Of a stretch of 51,142 bases of DNA, positions 614 through 30,741 are shown piece by piece. This DNA comes from a virus. Numbering within the stretch: position 1 is the stretch's first letter; each line of letters opens with the position of its first letter. Location: positions 1-51,142 of IMG/VR virus record IMGVR_UViG_3300008117_000058. One strand, written 5' to 3'. The notes beneath the pieces are model-generated. The model did not search any database and was not told where the DNA came from. It worked only from the letters and a program-made list of their open reading frames with translations. A program made the translations under genes and the position numbers.

Positions 614-2461
614 GTGATTGATATTAATGATTTAAAAAGCCATTCAGCGTTGTCTTTATTGGAAGACTATGATGGTATAAATCCGTATATTAAAAAGCTT
701 AAAAATGAATTCATTAAAAACAAAAAGATTCAATTAACAGAGAATCAATCTAGATATATAGTAGATAATCACGATAAAGAACCACAATATATTAATAGAG
801 TAATAGGTATTACACCTTATTTAGGTGAGGAACTTAAAAAGTTAGATGATTTGTCATTTATACCAGAAAAAGTCCTTATTGAATTTATATTAGCAGATAC
901 AGATAAAAGTTTTCATATTTATGGTAAATTAAAGCAAAACCAAAAGGAATCAAAAATGTATTGGTTACCAAAAACACAAGTAACTGATGACCCTTATTTT
1001 GAACCAATTGATGTAAATGTAGATTTATCAAAATATAATGAAATACTTAGTAAATACGGTAAAACATTATACAAACACCAAGAAGATGGTATTAAATTTT
1101 TATTATCTAGAAATGGTTGTATATTAGCAGACGACATGGGTTTAGGTAAATCCATGCAATCAATTATTGCTGCACTAGAAAGTGGTGCTGAAAAAATCCT
1201 TATAGTTACCACATCATCAACAAAAATAAACTGGCAGCGTGAAATAAATGTATTTTGCGATGAAACAACAATTGTTGATGGGAAGAAATGGGATTCAAAT
1301 AAATTTACAATAATAAATTTTGACATACTTAAAAACTTTCATACTTTACCACCTACAAAAAAACTAAAAGAAGGCGAAAAAGAACCTATATTGATTAAAG
1401 ATATGGTTAATGAAAAATTTGATTTATGTATTGTCGATGAAGCACATAATTTAAAAAATAATGAAAGTATCAGAGGTAAAATCATGGTTGATTTATGCGT
1501 CAAGCATAATATACCAAAAGTATGGCTTCTTACTGGTACTCCAGTCGCAAATAGACCTATGGACTTTTTTAATCTTTTAAAGATAATTAAGTCACCTATT
1601 GCAGATAATTGGAAACACTATGCAGTAAGATACTGTGAAGGTAAAAAGTTCTTTAGAACGCTTAAAAACGGCCAAAGAAAGCAAATATGGATAACAGATG
1701 GTGCTAGTAATTTAGAAGAATTAGCAAACAAAACAAAAAACATATTATTAAGACGTTTAAAGACTGACGCTATAGACATGCCAGACAAAATAGTTACTCC
1801 AATGTATCATCAACTAGATAAAAACGGTTGGAGAATGTATGATAAACTATGGGATGAATATGTTGAATTGAAAAAGAAACAAGGCAAAAGAACAAACGAA
1901 TCACAAAAAGATTTGGTTGAACTTATATTATTAAGACAATTCATTGCTAACGAAGCGATTCCATACACAATTGAAATGGTTGAGAACGCTATTGAAATGG
2001 GACGTAAAGTAATTGTGTTTACATCATTTTCAGATGAATTAGAAATAATTGCGAATCATTTTGGTAAGGCAGCTGTTAAACATAACGGTCCAATGTCATC
2101 AGCTAAAAAACAACATTCAGTTGACCAATTCCAAAACAATGAAAAAGTAAAAGTTTTTGTTGGAAACATAAAAAGTGCTGGTGTTGGTATTACGTTGACT
2201 GAAGCAACTGTTGTTATATTTAATTCGTTTGATTGGGTTACTGGTAATAATGAACAAGCAGAAGATAGAGCGTATCGTATTGGACAAAATAATGACGTTA
2301 ATGTATATTATCAATTATTTGAAGATACGATTTCAGTTAGGATGTGGGAAACTTTAAAACAAAAAAAACAAGTAATTAACACAATATTAGGTGTTGATAA
2401 TGCATCAAAAGAAGATGAAACTGATTTGTTAATTCAAAAAATATTAGATGGTGAATTATAA
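614..2461 (+). CDS. SNF2-family DNA helicase/translocase
   Basis: 615-residue superfamily 2 ATPase of the SNF2 type, predicted to translocate on or remodel DNA in phage replication, recombination or repair. Motif I is DDMGLGKS (173-180), motif II DEAH (275-278), motif III LLTGTP (305-310), and motif VI QAEDRAYRIGQ (about 548-558), so both RecA-like lobes are complete. The N-terminal 150 residues are unassigned. The start is GTG at 614, because an in-frame TGA lies at 602-604 and no ATG is nearby. The last 71 residues are encoded a second time at 3482-3688, beyond the HNH gene. The stop overlaps the convergent HNH gene by 6 nt. T4 UvsW is a functional analogue at most; the motif details are closer to SMARCAL1/Rad54-like proteins. 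Confidence 0.93.
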   Translation: MIDINDLKSHSALSLLEDYDGINPYIKKLKNEFIKNKKIQLTENQSRYIVDNHDKEPQYINRVIGITPYLGEELKKLDDLSFIPEKVLIEFILADTDKSFHIYGKLKQNQKESKMYWLPKTQVTDDPYFEPIDVNVDLSKYNEILSKYGKTLYKHQEDGIKFLLSRNGCILADDMGLGKSMQSIIAALESGAEKILIVTTSSTKINWQREINVFCDETTIVDGKKWDSNKFTIINFDILKNFHTLPPTKKLKEGEKEPILIKDMVNEKFDLCIVDEAHNLKNNESIRGKIMVDLCVKHNIPKVWLLTGTPVANRPMDFFNLLKIIKSPIADNWKHYAVRYCEGKKFFRTLKNGQRKQIWITDGASNLEELANKTKNILLRRLKTDAIDMPDKIVTPMYHQLDKNGWRMYDKLWDEYVELKKKQGKRTNESQKDLVELILLRQFIANEAIPYTIEMVENAIEMGRKVIVFTSFSDELEIIANHFGKAAVKHNGPMSSAKKQHSVDQFQNNEKVKVFVGNIKSAGVGITLTEATVVIFNSFDWVTGNNEQAEDRAYRIGQNNDVNVYYQLFEDTISVRMWETLKQKKQVINTILGVDNASKEDETDLLIQKILDGEL

Positions 2462-2965
2462 CTTTTTACGTTTAATTTTATTTCTATTTAGATTACCTTC
2501 ATAATAAACACCATTAATCACCCTAGTAGTACTCCACATAGGTCTTAAATTTTCCAATGCATTGACAACACTAGGGTGCTCAGTTGTATCAAAACTACTT
2601 ACTGGTCTAATATGGTCAACATGCCACTCGCCATGGTTATCCCAACACATACCTTCTGTGAATAACTGTTCAATATGTTCTTTAAATTCTAAGGCAGAGT
2701 AACCAAGAAGGTCTATAGTATAACCTTCTTTTTTGGTGTTTAATCGCCATAATGACATTTTAAGAACGCTTCTCCATAAACCAACGTGTTTATTTTTTAA
2801 TCCATATTCTCGTCTTTTATCTTGGTTTTTTTGATTATATTCTTTTTTATAATTATTTTTACATTCTTTACATTGACAATGATAACCATCTTTACCTAAT
2901 TTATTAACGTGAAATTCATTAATTGATTTCTCAATATTACATTTAGTACATATTTTACTTTGCAT
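2456..2965 (-). CDS. HNH homing endonuclease with N-terminal zinc-binding motif
   Basis: 169 residues from the ATG at 2965; an earlier ATG at 2986 would add 7 residues inside the upstream gene. CTKC (6-9) and CQCKEC (30-35) form a likely zinc ribbon. The nuclease signature is WHVDHIRP (113-120) followed by NALENLRPMW (134-143), as in free-standing phage HNH endonucleases that nick or cut a conserved gene. It overlaps the RHH gene upstream by 11 nt and the SNF2 stop codon by 6 nt, facing it. It lies between the intact SNF2 3' end and a second, truncated copy of that end, so it is the probable agent of that rearrangement. Confidence 0.9.
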   Translation of the reverse strand: MQSKICTKCNIEKSINEFHVNKLGKDGYHCQCKECKNNYKKEYNQKNQDKRREYGLKNKHVGLWRSVLKMSLWRLNTKKEGYTIDLLGYSALEFKEHIEQLFTEGMCWDNHGEWHVDHIRPVSSFDTTEHPSVVNALENLRPMWSTTRVINGVYYEGNLNRNKIKRKKL

Positions 2966-3362
2966 TTGGAATAACTGTGAAATCAATATTATATGGTGTT
3001 GAATCTTCTAAGTAAAATTGAACATAACCATAAGTCATATTATTTTCTTTATTAAATAATATATCTGACACTATGGTTTCAAAACCTAAATTCTCTTTTA
3101 ATGCATCTTCTAAAACTTTTTTAAGTGTGTCAGTAAATTCGAATAATCCATTATTTAAAATTTTATTTAATACCATTTTAGTTAATAATATTCTAATTGA
3201 TTTTTCTTGTGCTAAATAAACACCATCTTCTATACAATTAATATCATCATTTATAAAATTAACTATTTTATCACTCATTGATAAAGATTCAATTTTGCAT
3301 TTATTTTTAAACTTACGTTTAAGTTCAGAATTTATTCTAATTTTTATTTCCGTTTCTTTCAT
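2955..3362 (-). CDS. Ribbon-helix-helix-like protein linked to the HNH gene
   Basis: 135 residues. The N-terminus (about 1-40) reads like an Arc/MetJ-type DNA-binding segment: a short strand EIKIRIN followed by helices around ELKRKFKNKCKI and SMSDKIVNFI. The rest is not recognised. It is transcribed before the HNH gene and overlaps it by 11 nt, so the two probably travel together; the protein may regulate the nuclease or assist target binding. Nothing equivalent accompanies the other two nuclease genes here. The RHH assignment comes from pattern only and is moderate at best. Confidence 0.55.
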   Translation of the reverse strand: MKETEIKIRINSELKRKFKNKCKIESLSMSDKIVNFINDDINCIEDGVYLAQEKSIRILLTKMVLNKILNNGLFEFTDTLKKVLEDALKENLGFETIVSDILFNKENNMTYGYVQFYLEDSTPYNIDFTVIPNAK

Positions 3363-3481
3363 TTTAATTAATTTAATTAAACTATTATTTGTGGTAACAT
3401 TGTACCCACATTAATAAATATATTAATATTATTAAAAAAGTGAATAATATTTACTTTCTTTTTAAAAATATTTATCATTAT

Positions 3482-3688
3482 AACAATGAGCAAGCTGAAG
3501 ACCGTGCGTATCGTATAGGTCAAAATAATGACGTTAACGTTTACTATCAATTATTTGAAAATAGCATTTCAACTAGAATGTGGGAAATGTTAAGAAACAA
3601 AAAAGATATAATTTCAACCATTATGGGTGAAAAAACAATAACAGAGGATGAAATAACTGCTTTATTAGCAGAACAATTAATAGATTAA
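3482..3688 (+). pseudogene. Displaced 3' end of a second SNF2 helicase copy
   Basis: Sixty-eight codons matching the end of the SNF2 helicase from NNEQAEDRAYRIGQ onward. The first 26 residues are identical to the intact gene but differ at 11 nucleotides, all silent; after that the two diverge (for example FENSISTRMW against FEDTISVRMW). The frame runs open from a GTG at 3440, but the 13 residues before the match resemble nothing and no ATP-binding part exists, so it cannot be a working helicase. It ends 5 nt before the glutaredoxin start, as if it were the original upstream neighbour of that gene. Confidence 0.85.
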
Positions 3689-3693
3689 TTATT

Positions 3694-3954
3694 ATGGTAA
3701 CAATTTATGGTTTTAAAGGGTGCCCTTATTGCACAGAATTAAAAGAAATTTTAACAAACGAAGGTGTCGAATTTAGAGATGTCGATATTGAACTAGATGA
3801 AAACACTGAAGAGTTTGAAAAAGTTAGGGAAGTTTCAAAAGCTGATGAAGTTCCTATCATAAAGGTTGGTAACCAATTATTGGTACCAAACGTTTCGTTT
3901 AAAAGTATCGAAGAAGCTAGTTTACTGGTAATAAAGTTTTTAAATGAAATGTAA
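3694..3954 (+). CDS. Glutaredoxin
   Basis: 86 residues, the full length of a small glutaredoxin. The dithiol active site is CPYC (residues 10-13) after the first strand VTIYGFKG, and the cis-proline lies in DEVPIIKVGN (P54). Such phage proteins reduce disulfides with glutathione or a similar thiol and often serve ribonucleotide reductase, which is not in this window. It starts 5 nt after the SNF2 remnant, which suggests an ancestral SNF2-glutaredoxin operon. Its last 38 nt overlap the convergent Vsr-like nuclease gene. Confidence 0.93.
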   Translation: MVTIYGFKGCPYCTELKEILTNEGVEFRDVDIELDENTEEFEKVREVSKADEVPIIKVGNQLLVPNVSFKSIEEASLLVIKFLNEM

Positions 3955-5002
3955 TATCTTCAAAATAAGGTATTCTTATTAAGTTTATTTTATTGACTAA
4001 ACAGTAATTATTTTTTATTGAATCGTTTTGTTTAGTCAATAAAAAACCTTTTTCAGCACCAAATCTATTAACTGGTTTAAAATGTTGTATCCCATCGTAT
4101 TCGATACAAGTATTATAGTCTGGTAAATAGAAATCAAACGGTAAAACATTTATATTTTTACAATCAAAAAAAGTATGTTGTTGGTTAAAATTTATATTAT
4201 TTTTAATCAACAATTCACGAATAGTTTTTTCACCTTTTGATTCTTTACAAATAGGACAACCTTGACCCTTTAAATGCATATTTGGTGTTTGTTTAAATAA
4301 ACCATGGTTTGGACATATTATATCTATTTTAATTTTAGATTTTTTATATATTGTTTTAGTGTAATTATATTTATCACCGTGTTTTAATTTAGCCTCATTA
4401 ATAAATTCATTAGTTGTTTTATTCTTACCAACACATTTTGGACAACCTTGTTTTAATGTTAAATGTTGGTTTGGTGTTTGTTCAAACATACCATGACTAT
4501 TACATATAATTTTAACTTTAGTTTTAGTATCATAATAATCAACTAATGAATAATCATAATTATTGTTATGTATTAACTTAGCTTGTTTTATAAACTCATT
4601 GGTTGTTTTATTTAAACCGTTACATTTACCACATGTTTGACCATTTAGGTGATTTGTTGGTGTTTGCTCAAACACACCATGAGTTTTACATATTATTTTA
4701 ACTTTGGTTTTTGCGTTAACATAGTCAACTAATGAATAATCATATTTATCACCATGTATTAATTTAGCTTCAGAAACAAAAACGTTTTTATTTTTTCTGG
4801 TGTTTTTACTAATATTAATATAACCACATTTATTACACCCTTGTTTTCTATAAATATGATGATGTGGTGTCTGTTCAAATTCACCATGAATATTACATAT
4901 TATTTTAACTTTTGAGTCAATTCTTTTATAATCCACTAACGAATAATCATACTTATTATTATGTATTAATATAGCCTTATTTATAAATTTTAATTTATCC
5001 AT
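3917..5002 (-). CDS. Vsr-like homing endonuclease with four zinc-ribbon-type repeats
   Basis: 361 residues. Four tandem repeats of about 55 residues fill roughly 4-240; each has the pattern YDYSLVDY, KVKIIC, HG.FEQTP, then a CxxC pair, consistent with DUF723-type DNA-recognition repeats. The C-terminal domain (about 250-361) has FDFYLPDYNTCIEYDGIQHF, a Vsr/EDxHD-type fold of the PD-(D/E)XK superfamily, with CPIC just before it. This is the layout of large phage homing endonucleases related to I-Bth0305I. The gene converges on glutaredoxin with a 38-nt antisense overlap, and a promoter-like octamer sits 10 nt upstream of its ATG. Confidence 0.85.
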   Translation of the reverse strand: MDKLKFINKAILIHNNKYDYSLVDYKRIDSKVKIICNIHGEFEQTPHHHIYRKQGCNKCGYINISKNTRKNKNVFVSEAKLIHGDKYDYSLVDYVNAKTKVKIICKTHGVFEQTPTNHLNGQTCGKCNGLNKTTNEFIKQAKLIHNNNYDYSLVDYYDTKTKVKIICNSHGMFEQTPNQHLTLKQGCPKCVGKNKTTNEFINEAKLKHGDKYNYTKTIYKKSKIKIDIICPNHGLFKQTPNMHLKGQGCPICKESKGEKTIRELLIKNNINFNQQHTFFDCKNINVLPFDFYLPDYNTCIEYDGIQHFKPVNRFGAEKGFLLTKQNDSIKNNYCLVNKINLIRIPYFEDITFHLKTLLPVN

Positions 5003-5012
5003 TATTTTTATT

Positions 5013-5026
5013 TTAATATAAATATC
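5013..5026 (-). promoter_or_regulatory. Late-promoter-like element for the Vsr-like nuclease gene
   Basis: On the minus strand this reads GATATTTATATTAA; the octamer TATATTAA ends 10 nt before the ATG at 5002. Core and spacing match the elements before structural genes elsewhere in the window. Confidence 0.45.
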
Positions 5027-5108
5027 TATTATTTTTATAAAATACGAGTTAGGTAGCGATTAAGTTACGAATTAACAAAGAAATTTTTAGCATAATTGTG
5101 TTTATTCT

Positions 5109-5126
5109 CATATTTATAAGTAAATA
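5109..5126 (+). promoter_or_regulatory. Late-promoter-like element for the neck-like gene
   Basis: Reads CATATTTATAAGTAAATA; the octamer TATAAGTA (5115-5122) ends 12 nt before the ATG at 5135. It is one mismatch from the T4 late promoter TATAAATA. Confidence 0.5.
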
Positions 5127-5134
5127 AATAAATT

Positions 5135-6277
5135 ATGGGAGTTAGTTTAGACGATAAAGAAAAATTATTCAGACAGTTGCGTCATTCATTAGGTGCACCA
5201 ACTCGTCAAATTGAATTAACAGATGAACAATTATGTACTCTTCTTGAAATTTGTATTGAAGATTATGCTCAATACGTTCAAGAATGGTTAATTGAGCATC
5301 AATGGCAATCATTGATTGGTCAAAATCTAGATACATTGGATATGGCGTTTGCGTTGAGTGTTAGAAATTTTGATTTCATGACACAATACACTTACGCGTA
5401 TTCAAAACAAGTTGGTTTACAAACTAGAGGCCCATGGGAACTTAAAAAAGATTTTGTGACTCTTGAATCTGGAAGACAAGTATATCAAATACCAGCTGGT
5501 CGTGAAATAAATGAAGTACTTTGGATTACACCTCCAGCAACTAGCCAAGCGTTATTAGCTAACTATGGTGGTATTGACTATGGATTTGGTGGTGGATTTT
5601 CACAAATAGGTGGTGGTGTTGGTACTGGCGGACCTGGTTTTGCTCGTTCTGGTTATTATATTGCACCAGCATTTGATATTTTATTAACTGCTGCTGATAT
5701 GAACTTAAAAAATCGTATCGTAAGAAGTGAATTGGTTCATAAAATAACAGCTGGACCAGACGGTACAAAACTATTACACTTGATGAGCACTCCAGGTTCT
5801 AAATTATCTTTTGGACAAGGTATTGGTGGTGTTGGTAGTGCAATTAATTTAACTGGTTGTCAAGTATGGTATTTCTATTATGACACAAATCCAGATAACG
5901 TTGACCAATGTAGAAAAGATAATCCAGACATTATCAAAATGCCTAACCAAGTTCCACTATCTAAATTAGATTATGCAGACTTTAATGAACCAACAAAAAC
6001 ACTAGTACGTCAATTGTTTATTGCTGAAGGTAAAAGAACACTAGGTAGAGTTAGAGGTAAATTTGGTGGTATTGTAGGTGTTGAAGGCGCAGAAAGGACA
6101 ATGGATTATGATTCATTATTATCTGAAGGTAATGAAGAGAAAAAAGCAGTGTTAGAAAGACTTGACGCTAGATTAGAAAGATTATCATCAACAAAACAAT
6201 TAGAACGAGGCGCTAACGAAGCTGAAAACTTAAACAAAACACTAAAATACAGACCACTAGGGTTCTGGGTATATTAA
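5135..6277 (+). CDS. Putative virion structural protein, neck (gp13-like)
   Basis: 380 residues. The N-terminus (about 5-110) is helical and charged, with LRHSLGAPTRQIELTDEQL and an LCTLLEICIEDYAQYVQEWL helix. A Gly-rich stretch follows at about 145-170 (GGGFSQIGGGVGTGGPGFAR), and the C-terminus is a charged helix ending in LGFWVY. The N-terminal style reminds me of T4-like neck/head-completion proteins (T4 gp13 is 309 residues), and the gene sits behind a late-type promoter with a terminator after it. A general virion structural role is more certain than the neck assignment. It stands alone, with no other head genes nearby in the window. Confidence 0.5.
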   Translation: MGVSLDDKEKLFRQLRHSLGAPTRQIELTDEQLCTLLEICIEDYAQYVQEWLIEHQWQSLIGQNLDTLDMAFALSVRNFDFMTQYTYAYSKQVGLQTRGPWELKKDFVTLESGRQVYQIPAGREINEVLWITPPATSQALLANYGGIDYGFGGGFSQIGGGVGTGGPGFARSGYYIAPAFDILLTAADMNLKNRIVRSELVHKITAGPDGTKLLHLMSTPGSKLSFGQGIGGVGSAINLTGCQVWYFYYDTNPDNVDQCRKDNPDIIKMPNQVPLSKLDYADFNEPTKTLVRQLFIAEGKRTLGRVRGKFGGIVGVEGAERTMDYDSLLSEGNEEKKAVLERLDARLERLSSTKQLERGANEAENLNKTLKYRPLGFWVY

Positions 6278-19866: not shown

Positions 19867-22824
19867 TTAGTATACACCGTAAGCTCTTACTTTATCACCA
19901 ACAGATGGTGCTATAAAGAAAGTTACGCTACTTACTACACCATCTACTACGTTTGCAGTGTAATCTTCACTGTCTAGTAATAAACCGTTTAAGTAAATTA
20001 ATTCTGAACCTTCTCTAACATCACTAGCTAATGAGAATTCTGTAATAATTTCGTTAGGTGTTTCTACTACAGCAACACGCTTAGCGTAAATATTAGCAAA
20101 ATCTAAAGCTAAAGATGCTTCAGCACTTTCAGCTCTTGCAACCTCGCTTGACATATCAGCAACTACCTCAGCGAATGAGTCAATTGATGTTAAGTCAGTG
20201 TTAGCGATGATGTAAGATACCTCAGAAGATAATTCTAAAGCAATTGACGCTTCAGCAGCTTCAGCTCTTGATATTTCAGCAGATAATTCAGAAGATAAAC
20301 CAGAACCTAATGAACCAGCAACAGTATCAACATACAATTTGTTAGCAGCATCACCATCGTTGGTTGGAGTAGGAAGGTTTTTAATTGTTTTAGTACCATC
20401 ATTTTCAGAAAAATCTAAACTTCCATGAACATAAATATCAGAATTATTAATGTCGTTTAAATTATATGTACTAATCATATTTACATTAGTAACTTGATGA
20501 GTACCCATATCAATACTACCACTCATAGTACCACCAGCTAAATCTAATTTAAGAGCATCAGCATTATCAACATACAATTTGTTAGTAGCATCACCATCGT
20601 TTGTTGGTGCTGGTAAGTTGATAATAGGGATTTCATTATTACCGTCTAATGGTGAAAATAATTTAATAGTTTCATCAGAAGTTATGTAATTAGTTTGTAA
20701 TGATATTGCAACAACATTAGTTACATTAGTAATATTGTTTTCACCCATGTCAATATTACCACTCATAGTACCACCAGCTAAGTCTAATTTAGCAGCAGCC
20801 AATAAAGCTTCAGCTTCGATAGCACGAGATTCTTCAGCAGATACCGCAGCAATTCTTAAAGAAGCTTCAGCATCGATTGCATTTCCTCTGTTAACAACTT
20901 CAGAAGATAAATCAGCAGTTAATACCGCTTCAGCAGATTCAGCTCTTGCAATCTCAGCAGATAAATCTGTTGTAGCAGCATTTGCTAAGTTTGTAATTGC
21001 ACTATTTAAATCACCATCAGCAGATTGGAAAGCAGCAACAACTTCAGTTAATGAATCGATAGCAGCTGGGTCAACGTTATTTGTGATGAAATCAATTTGA
21101 CTTTGTAATGAAGCATCAGCAGCATCTACATAAGTTTTATTAGTAGCATCACCACCTTCTGTTGGTGCTGGTAGGTTGATTGGTAGTTTAGTGGTTCCAA
21201 AATCTAGGTCATTATTAACAATTATATAATCACCATTTAATGAATATAAATTATCTGTTGTAAGACCCATGGTTGATATAAAATCACCTTGAATACTAGC
21301 AGCATTTGTAATATCATAATCACCCATATTAATACTACCACTCATTGTTCCACCAGCTAAATCTAATTTAGCAGCAGCCAATGAAGCTTCAGCTTCTTCA
21401 GCTCTTGATACTTCAGTAGATAATGTAGCCATTACGTCAACTTCACCAACTCTCAATACTGATTCAATATCAACTTCACCAGCAAATGTTCTTACACCAG
21501 ATTCTGGAGCAGCAATAGTGTCTTTCAATCTAATTGTGTTATCAGCAGTGTTAAGTTCAATTGTTTGTTCATCAGTTAATGCTAATGATTCAATTTCTGT
21601 AGAAATTGTTGAAGCTAATGATTCGTCAGCAGCAATTCTATCAGAAACAACTGTAGCTATACTAGAAGATACTTCAGCAGAAATAGAAGCACCACCATCT
21701 AAACGAGCAGAAATTTCAGCAGATAAATCAGCAGCAATAGAAGCATCAGCAGCATCTACGTATAATTTGTTAGTAGCATCACCATCGTTTGTTGGATTAG
21801 GTAAGTTAGTAATAGCATTACCATTTTGATTAATTTCAGAATATGATGTTATATTAGAAGCATCTTTTGCACCTATCGAATTAGTAGCAAGGTCAGTTAC
21901 TGAAATAGCTGGTAAATTTCTTATATAACTACCATTCATATCAATATCTCCACTCATAGTACCACCAGCTAAATCTAATTTAGCATCATCCAATGAAGCT
22001 TCAGCAGATTCAGCTCTTGCTTGTTCTTCATTCACATCAGAAATTCTAGCTTCAATTTCAGCAGATAAATCTAAAGCAATAGAAGTGTCAGCAGAAATTC
22101 TAGCAACTTCTTCTAAAGATACAGCAGCAGCTCTATCAACTAATTCAGTAGATAAATCAGCAGCTAAAGATGCATCACCAGCAACTCTAGAAGATACTTC
22201 AGCTGATAAATCAGAACCAGCAGCGTTAGCTAAGTTTGTAATTGCGTTGTTGATATCACCATCAGCTGATTGGAAAGCAGATACGATTTCAGTTAATGAA
22301 TCGATAGCAGCACCATCAACGTTAGAAATAACAAATTCAACTTTTGTATTTAACGATGCTTCAGCAGCGATAGCTCTTGACGCTTCAGCAGCTAAATCAG
22401 AAGCCAACGAACCTTCAGCAGCGATAGCTCTTTCTTCTTCAGCATCAACATCAGCAATTCTTAATGATTCTTCAGCATCAATGTTATTTTGTAATGAAAT
22501 CTCAGCAACTATTCTGCTAGAAATTTCAGCTGACATAGCAGCAGTTACTGATACATCACCAGCAACTCTATCAGATACTTCAGCTGATATTGCAGCAGCT
22601 CTTGCCGATACTTCAGTTGATAAATTAGAAGCTAAAGATAAGTCACCAGCTACTCTAGATGAAGCTTCAGCTGACATGTCAGCACTTGTTGCAGAATTAA
22701 TCGATGCAACCGCTTCAGAAACCCCAGAGATATCAGTTAATACGATACCTTGTGGGTTTGTAATTAACGCGTTGTCCAAAATTAAATCGGACTGTCTATT
22801 TAAGACGATTTTTGTATTTGCCAT
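19867..22824 (-). CDS. Long tail fibre with alpha-helical coiled-coil repeats
   Basis: 985 residues. Most of it is made of Ala/Ser/Glu-rich heptad segments such as ADLSAEISARL and EASRAIAAEASLNTK, which should form a trimeric coiled coil. These are broken by about four modules of the type LDLAGGTMSG.IDM, then NLP.PT..GDATNKLYVD, the collar-like repeat known from T4/lambda-type side fibres. The C-terminal 70 residues (EIITEFSLASDVREG to VRAYGVY) are a small beta domain with IYLNGLLLDSEDY, shared with the neighbour at 23234. No lysine-rich region or enzymatic domain was seen. The start has a (TTA)7 run upstream. Confidence 0.85.
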   Translation of the reverse strand: MANTKIVLNRQSDLILDNALITNPQGIVLTDISGVSEAVASINSATSADMSAEASSRVAGDLSLASNLSTEVSARAAAISAEVSDRVAGDVSVTAAMSAEISSRIVAEISLQNNIDAEESLRIADVDAEEERAIAAEGSLASDLAAEASRAIAAEASLNTKVEFVISNVDGAAIDSLTEIVSAFQSADGDINNAITNLANAAGSDLSAEVSSRVAGDASLAADLSTELVDRAAAVSLEEVARISADTSIALDLSAEIEARISDVNEEQARAESAEASLDDAKLDLAGGTMSGDIDMNGSYIRNLPAISVTDLATNSIGAKDASNITSYSEINQNGNAITNLPNPTNDGDATNKLYVDAADASIAADLSAEISARLDGGASISAEVSSSIATVVSDRIAADESLASTISTEIESLALTDEQTIELNTADNTIRLKDTIAAPESGVRTFAGEVDIESVLRVGEVDVMATLSTEVSRAEEAEASLAAAKLDLAGGTMSGSINMGDYDITNAASIQGDFISTMGLTTDNLYSLNGDYIIVNNDLDFGTTKLPINLPAPTEGGDATNKTYVDAADASLQSQIDFITNNVDPAAIDSLTEVVAAFQSADGDLNSAITNLANAATTDLSAEIARAESAEAVLTADLSSEVVNRGNAIDAEASLRIAAVSAEESRAIEAEALLAAAKLDLAGGTMSGNIDMGENNITNVTNVVAISLQTNYITSDETIKLFSPLDGNNEIPIINLPAPTNDGDATNKLYVDNADALKLDLAGGTMSGSIDMGTHQVTNVNMISTYNLNDINNSDIYVHGSLDFSENDGTKTIKNLPTPTNDGDAANKLYVDTVAGSLGSGLSSELSAEISRAEAAEASIALELSSEVSYIIANTDLTSIDSFAEVVADMSSEVARAESAEASLALDFANIYAKRVAVVETPNEIITEFSLASDVREGSELIYLNGLLLDSEDYTANVVDGVVSSVTFFIAPSVGDKVRAYGVY

Positions 22825-29840: not shown

Positions 29841-30263
29841 ATGGCTAACAGAGCAATAAAAGATAATAATTTAACTATAAACAACGAAACAAAGAAGTAT
29901 AAAGCTTATGCTACTGAAGAAACACGTTTAAGACAAGCTAAAGAGTTATGTGAAGTACAGAAAAATTGTTCTGAATATCATAGATTAGGTGGTGAAAATA
30001 GATTAAAAGAAGTTGAAAACTTAGTTCACCAAGAACAAAAAAAAGATGAATTAAGAAGAAAGATTCAAGACGTTACTAGTCATAAAAACGTTCATCAATC
30101 TGAGAAAAACCCAACAGAAGTTTCAACACCTAATGTTGCTAAAAAAAACAATAATAAAAATGGAATGATTTTACCTATTTCTGACGCTTTGAAAGAAGAA
30201 ATTTCAACAATGAAATATTTAATAGAGTATATGAATAACAATAACAACAAAATAAATTTATAA
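29841..30263 (+). CDS. Hypothetical charged helical protein
   Basis: 140 residues, Lys/Glu/Asn-rich and mostly helical, with two cysteines (CEVQKNC, about 33-39). There is a low-complexity Lys/Asn run near 105-110 (AKKNNNKNG) and a C-terminal helix DALKEEISTMKYLIEYM. No family recognised. It starts 1 nt after the upstream stop and lies 4 nt before the paralogous pair, so it belongs to the same transcript. Confidence 0.6.
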   Translation: MANRAIKDNNLTINNETKKYKAYATEETRLRQAKELCEVQKNCSEYHRLGGENRLKEVENLVHQEQKKDELRRKIQDVTSHKNVHQSEKNPTEVSTPNVAKKNNNKNGMILPISDALKEEISTMKYLIEYMNNNNNKINL

Positions 30264-30267
30264 AAAT

Positions 30268-30741
30268 ATGCCAACTCCTTACATTTACGGTCAAACTCCG
30301 TTAGAAAAATTCGCAATAAATGGTAATCCATTATATGGTAATAGTGGTAGACTTTGGTTAATCCAACAATCTAAAGTTGGTACTGGTAAATATGCATACA
30401 GTGGACCATATAAAAACCCAGATATTACTGGTAATTTAGGTGATAAATATAGCGTTTCACACACTAACGCTGTGGCTGATACTACTTCACCATATTTAGG
30501 TAAAGGTACTGGTGACGCTATTGATATCAATAACACTCAAAAAGGTATTACAGCTAGAAATAATTATGCTGGTGGTAGTTTTGAAGATATCAACGGTGTG
30601 TCATCACAAGTTGGTTCTGGTAGAAAAGCACAACAAGTTTTAAATTCTACTATATGTGGTTATGGTCCTAAAAGTATAGGTTATAAAGAATATGACAAAC
30701 AACCAGATATGTCAGCTAATAAAGGTCAAGTATCAATTTAA
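30268..30741 (+). CDS. Probable virion protein, first of a tandem paralogous pair
   Basis: 157 residues that begin MPTPYIYGQTPLEK, exactly like the next gene. Shared segments include RLWLIQQ(S/T)KVGTGK, SGPYKNP, TGNLGDKYSV, NAVADTT and GGSFEDING. It differs mainly by an insertion after LEK (FAINGNPLYGNSG) and by its last 35 residues. The Gly/Asn/Tyr-rich, low-charge composition suggests a beta-structured capsid or tail surface component. No family name comes to mind. Confidence 0.7.
   Translation: MPTPYIYGQTPLEKFAINGNPLYGNSGRLWLIQQSKVGTGKYAYSGPYKNPDITGNLGDKYSVSHTNAVADTTSPYLGKGTGDAIDINNTQKGITARNNYAGGSFEDINGVSSQVGSGRKAQQVLNSTICGYGPKSIGYKEYDKQPDMSANKGQVSI

Follow-up and report, generated by a model that had tools for sequence, protein, structure and literature searches.

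Homing nucleases that insert into coding motifs usually come with an intron or an intein, or split the gene they enter. The closest known system to the phage locus considered here is that of the fungal mitochondrial 'gene hybrids', which were produced by mobile endonuclease ORFs in atp6 of Allomyces macrogynus, in atp6, atp9, cox2 and nad3 of a Glomus sp., in atp9 of Rhizopus and in cox2 of Mortierella (PMC3630166). In these hybrids, as in the phage element, a C-terminal end of foreign origin is joined in frame to the resident gene and followed by an endonuclease ORF, and the native end is displaced downstream, where it matches close relatives and the differences are mostly synonymous (PMC3630166). 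Unlike the fungal cases, the phage element has a nuclease of the endonuclease VII (HNH) type, encoded on the opposite strand and accompanied by a ribbon-helix-helix (RHH) gene; one element was transferred many times into one gene; a fixed missense mark lies by the junction; and a second nuclease family acts likewise elsewhere.

The closest engineered system is HomeR, a home-and-rescue drive built in Drosophila PolG2 with a re-coded end of 22-27 residues (PMC7968924). Like HomeR, the phage element would occupy the very site that it cuts, within a needed gene, and supply a replacement for the 3' end downstream of the cut, together with two homology arms. It differs in being natural, in having a protein nuclease, presumed here to cut, instead of Cas9 and a guide RNA, and in that its substitute end is a diverged homologue apparently protected by one missense codon, whereas HomeR depends on designed recoding. 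The initial annotation had likened the locus to an engineered cleave-and-rescue drive. The likeness to an engineered drive stands, while 'home-and-rescue' is the apter label because the element sits within the cut gene itself; the cleave-and-rescue or toxin-antidote class was rejected, since the element is at a junction inside its target gene.

Among phage enzymes, the free-standing homing endonucleases of the T4 type (seg and mob, with MobE in nrdA and MobA in gene 60) share with the mechanism proposed for the phage element intronless homing, break repair and co-conversion of flanking sequence, and some are HNH enzymes (PMC2988022). They lie next to the gene that they target, or break it up so that two polypeptides result, and in the passages searched none is described with a substitute end (PMC2988022). 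F-CphI, known from 'collaborative homing' at psbA of cyanophage S-PM2, is like the phage HNH enzyme free-standing, has the endonuclease VII motif and targets a conserved phage gene; F-CphI is protected by a group I intron, whereas the phage element is apparently protected by a captured end, without an intron (PMC6083498). No phage report of a gene-end/nuclease/gene-end layout was found in the open PMC literature, a coverage that mostly excludes subscription papers.

A helicase gene with two 3' ends

The window is the complete IMG/VR record IMGVR_UViG_3300008117_000058 (51,142 bases), and its features are collected in Table 1. The order initially annotated, an SNF2 helicase gene, HNH and RHH genes on the opposite strand, a second SNF2 end and a glutaredoxin gene, was found to be exact, as was the count of 11 nucleotide differences, every one silent, within the first 26 residues, which are equal in both ends. 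The two ends constitute a direct repeat of 205 nt with 73% identity and share 63% of amino acids over 68 aa (E about 1e-21), well above chance. The glutaredoxin ATG follows the stop of the displaced end (the remnant) by 5 nt. The same layout, with an SNF2 gene 100% identical, was present in L001 and L002 (IMG/VR, other metagenome ids), and since eight or more diverged relatives also show it, an assembly artefact was excluded.

Table 1. Coordinates of the features discussed, given as window positions
Feature	Position	Strand	Remarks
Hybrid SNF2 helicase gene	614..2461	+	615 aa; resident body and donor 3' end, fused in frame
Donor 3' end brought by the element	2239..2461	+	Sequence comparison, tree of ends
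Codon 543, ACT (Thr)	2240..2242	+	Candidate self-protection mark
HNH endonuclease, endonuclease VII type	2456..2986	-	phrog_1035, E 2e-24; motifs HGEWHVDHI, NALxNLRP
Ribbon-helix-helix (Arc-like) gene	2955..3362	-	Weak phrog_228/582 matches, Arc-like repressors
RHH-HNH leader	3363..3481	.	(T/G)ATAAATA late-promoter-like motif, - strand, abutting the remnant; low confidence
Displaced resident SNF2 3' end (remnant)	3482..3688	+	68 codons and stop, intact; stop at 3688
Glutaredoxin, C-terminal end replaced	3694..3954	+	SLLVIKFLNEM for AELTKKFLA; overlaps next nuclease gene
Second endonuclease, phrog_559 type	3917..5002	-	Unrelated to HNH; in glutaredoxin 3' end
Displaced resident glutaredoxin end (GAATTAACAAAGAAATTTTTAGCATAA)	5069..5095	+	27/27 identical to empty-site L006 end

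The HNH ORF, of 176 aa, has its first ATG at about 2968, and its stop codon and that of SNF2 overlap by 6 nt. The catalytic residues (HGEWHxDHI, NALxNL) are invariant across nine elements; a search of the PDB by sequence found no relative of the HNH protein. Complete elements pair the HNH gene with an RHH gene, the product of which is likely a regulator. Its DNA-binding N-terminus is kept, and the C-terminal part differs between elements (L074, L080 and L082 versus the window). The late-promoter-like motif of the leader showed weak enrichment in the window.

Relatives were collected by an SNF2 scan of viral contigs, which gave 67 loci, and further occupied loci were obtained from an HNH scan. 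Three kinds of allele were distinguished among the SNF2 loci: empty, element-bearing and derelict (L013). The empty alleles (L003, L004, L006, L008-L012, L016-L018, L022 and others) have a single remnant-like SNF2 end followed by glutaredoxin, the very junction that the initial annotation had predicted, and in the closest of them this end has 94-99% aa identity to the window remnant. Occupied alleles are L001/L002, which bear the window's element, L036-L039, L041/L053, L047 and L057, with L073/L074, L079, L080, L081/L082 and L087 added by the HNH scan. The same site is therefore empty in more than 25 alleles and occupied in about nine (at least nine distinct), so the element is optional. No cultured relative of the helicase was found above about 30% identity.

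In derelict L013 the donor end and the remnant adjoin, and HNH and RHH have been lost; since both ends are retained there in the absence of these genes, this allele indirectly points to the end that works. The donor end is in frame and conserved, is retained in L013 after HNH loss, and in each case ends in its own stop codon. The helicase gene stays whole, as first proposed, by the in-frame joining of a resident body to a donor end. Further signs of decay were a TnpB-type gene within the HNH 3' end of L041 (6401-7567), one mobile gene nested inside another, and an apparent terminase fragment in the remnant's expected place in L079.

Other insertions were observed in the same helicases. An intein is present at R552/C553 in motif VI of L015, L040, L048 and L049, eight codons from the element junction, and two kinds of element share motif VI as a hot spot; in-frame inserts of ~350 residues occur at the Walker A motif in L036-L039, L041, L047, L050 and others. 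A fragmented HNH copy (68% identity) lies elsewhere, upstream of SNF2, in L049 (1841-2575) and L048 (897-1630). In the window, 20690-21100 and 30256-30741 each have a similar copy (58-59% identity) downstream within about 1 kb, and these are probably repeats or paralogues in structural genes.

The mobile unit and its history

In the tree of ends, which was built on 71 columns and gives the donor clade moderate support, the donor ends all cluster together (1 change; 78% of bootstraps), and the next larger group takes in L026 and L054. Remnants fall with the native ends of their own lineage: that of the window with L004 (99% aa identity), those of L041 and L013 with L016, and that of L082 with L019/L021/L024. 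In the tree of bodies the element-bearing rows are scattered, and well-supported branches force at least six changes. A single clade of element-bearing bodies was rejected by the AU test (p 5e-56), also when the nine with close HNH were considered (p 1e-6). The window itself shows the same division, its SNF2 body being nearest to empty-site L003/L006/L004 and its 3' end lying in the donor clade. Distances between donor ends correlated with those between HNH genes at rho 0.83 and with those between bodies at 0.43, and the correlation of HNH with body distances was not significant (rho 0.24, p 0.16), the pairs being non-independent in all three comparisons.

The mobile unit was deduced to be the donor end together with HNH and RHH because the donor ends group and track HNH, the bodies scatter, and the remnants stay with their lineage. 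This comparison shows repeated transfer of the unit from the helicase allele of one phage to that of another; at every transfer the recipient retained its body, and its native end was shifted downstream, where it persists as an intact remnant. Transfer of the element was independent of the host-gene phylogeny, as is expected of a free-standing homing element. Two proposals of the initial annotation were borne out by these data, namely that the element arrived with its own diverged 3' end (the donor ends are one clade, and empty relatives have remnant-type ends) and that the resident end was displaced downstream.

The window remnant differs from L004 with dS 0.92 and dN 0.03. Remnants in general show mainly silent differences from the nearest native ends, the same pattern as among native ends, and the displacement is therefore probably recent. 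The intact remnants, with their few nonsynonymous changes, may also have kept some function.

The same layout in other genes

A second element of like design is present in the window at 3694-5095, in glutaredoxin; like codon 543 of SNF2, it had escaped the initial annotation. The glutaredoxin layout was also observed in L036/L039, where the remnant matches their own relative L049, and likewise in L008. In L013 (8380-9520) a neck-protein gene is followed by a phrog_559 nuclease and then by another neck 3' end, which bears the native terminator and matches L016. In L205 (3773-5767; L204 and L209 alike) a structural-region gene has a replaced 3' end, a nuclease and a displaced native end, and L210, L211 and L213 provide the empty site for the L204/L205 gene. 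Nearly all differences between the L205 copies are in the first ~66 nt by the junction, and beyond that the copies are almost identical.

A scan of the second nuclease family (79 loci) found long remnants in L204/L205 only. The test for short remnants inside single loci misses even the proven glutaredoxin case, and short remnants need empty relatives to be recognized. A match in L145 was rejected as a remnant since it is 2.9 kb distant and resembles an ordinary paralogue. No case of the layout was found in eight cultured-phage loci (including E. coli phage Bas82, Klebsiella KP13-7 and Yersinia phiR1-37), where the matches resemble internal nuclease repeats or chance. The layout class is thus recurrent, not universal. 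We lean slightly toward the view that phages hold a general class of unrelated homing nucleases inside conserved coding motifs, each with a self-protected substitute gene end. If this reading is true, insertion into essential genes would become safe without the help of an intron or intein.

Junction, probable self-protection and competing explanations

The element is inserted at codon 544/545, inside a conserved motif just before SNF2 motif VI, and the remnant starts at codon 545 or 546 in all cases. In the window the donor DNA has its left edge some 4-7 nt before the 2245/2246 junction; in L047 it lies up to 15 nt before the junction. This was deduced from the closest empty sequences: in the last 36 bases left of the junction the window differs from L003 at -7, -6 and -4 only, and L047 equals empty L019 from -60 to -16, after which codon 540 reads GAT in place of TCA and codon 543 reads ACT in place of CCA. 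Over codons 533-570 (12 before the junction and 26 after it) the sole fixed difference is codon 543, which is Thr (ACN) in 11/11 element alleles, including derelict L013, and Pro (CCN) in 27/27 ordinary empties. Pro/Thr543 is also the sole fixed amino-acid difference over codons 500-544. Pro543 corresponds in alignment to the 'WNP' proline of SNF2 proteins of solved structure (PDB relatives), and since it is conserved in SNF2, a cutter reading Pro543 would target a residue that recipients have little freedom to alter.

Thr543 is likely a self-protection mark, and comparison of the alleles suggests that it would block cutting; alternatively, the donor ends could have inherited Thr543 from a common ancestor without its conferring immunity. 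L026-L029 and L054 have Thr543 and a single donor-like helicase end without the element, and may represent either the lineage from which the end was captured or resistant alleles that have lost the element.

The explanation that we favor, with a probability of about 0.8, is that of a free-standing homing element within a conserved coding motif, carrying an in-frame substitute for all downstream sequence. In a mixed infection the HNH enzyme, perhaps regulated by the RHH protein, would cleave the empty allele close to WVPG|NNEQ, and the break would be mended by phage recombination with the element-bearing allele as template; the helicase body would serve as left homology arm, and the right arm would consist of the remnant and glutaredoxin. 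The hybrid gene would escape recutting because the donor DNA has Thr543 (ACN) for the conserved Pro543 (CCN), and the remnant would escape because the left half of the site is absent. The substitute end probably did not evolve by silent recoding but was captured, as a natural end, from another phage lineage (one like L026/L054).

Silent recoding had been proposed in the initial annotation, where the silent differences were taken to remove the nuclease target, and this claim was not supported for SNF2. If the right half of the site, from motif VI onward, had been recoded for protection, this would account for the 11 silent differences in 26 codons of the window and for the clustering of L205 differences beside the junction. 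However, the silent differences between the two ends vary from element to element and are not common to them, donor end and remnant are identical over the first 20 nt at the junction in L057, over 17 nt in L080 and from codon 551 to about 571 in L036, and pairs of native ends show similar synonymous divergence. The fixed difference is instead the missense change Pro543 to Thr. Protection by silent recoding is accordingly considered unlikely, and the silent differences of the window are, as far as such comparison can tell, ordinary divergence.

Passive hitch-hiking, in which ordinary phage recombination moved the helicase end and the adjoining nuclease gene without target-specific homing, is held to be distinctly improbable. 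Recombination is frequent in phages, cutting by the HNH enzyme is putative, and certain elements (L013; L041, whose HNH gene holds a TnpB-type gene) appear to be inactive, yet the junction is common to all transfers within about 2 codons, the displaced end stays in place, the HNH catalytic residues are retained, and the second nuclease family shows a like layout in other genes. A collapsed tandem SNF2 duplication or an intron with alternative 3' exons would explain two diverged 3' ends on one strand, but is scarcely credible: it is contradicted by the empty-site relatives, by the finding of two full tandem SNF2 genes, named at the outset as the refuting observation, in 0/67 loci, and by the grouping of remnants with the host lineage and of donor ends with each other. 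Rfam gave no intron family, with no group I/II match in 2000-5200. That the nuclease is enclosed by a group I intron or by an intein was rejected on this ground and because the nuclease is on the opposite strand and every donor end has its own stop.

On the evidence of these comparisons, the element is most probably a natural home-and-rescue homing element in uncultured phages; its history is well explained, and its biochemical steps would be those proposed above. Its substitute gene end would solve the problem of insertion into a coding motif in the way that engineers' home-and-rescue drives do. The alleles of this one gene (about nine occupied, one derelict and more than 25 empty) would constitute a natural record of the spread, self-protection and decay of a drive. 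The explanation predicts that a single codon (543) separates cut from uncut alleles, and it would account for hybrid genes and orphan gene ends that are likely misread by annotation.
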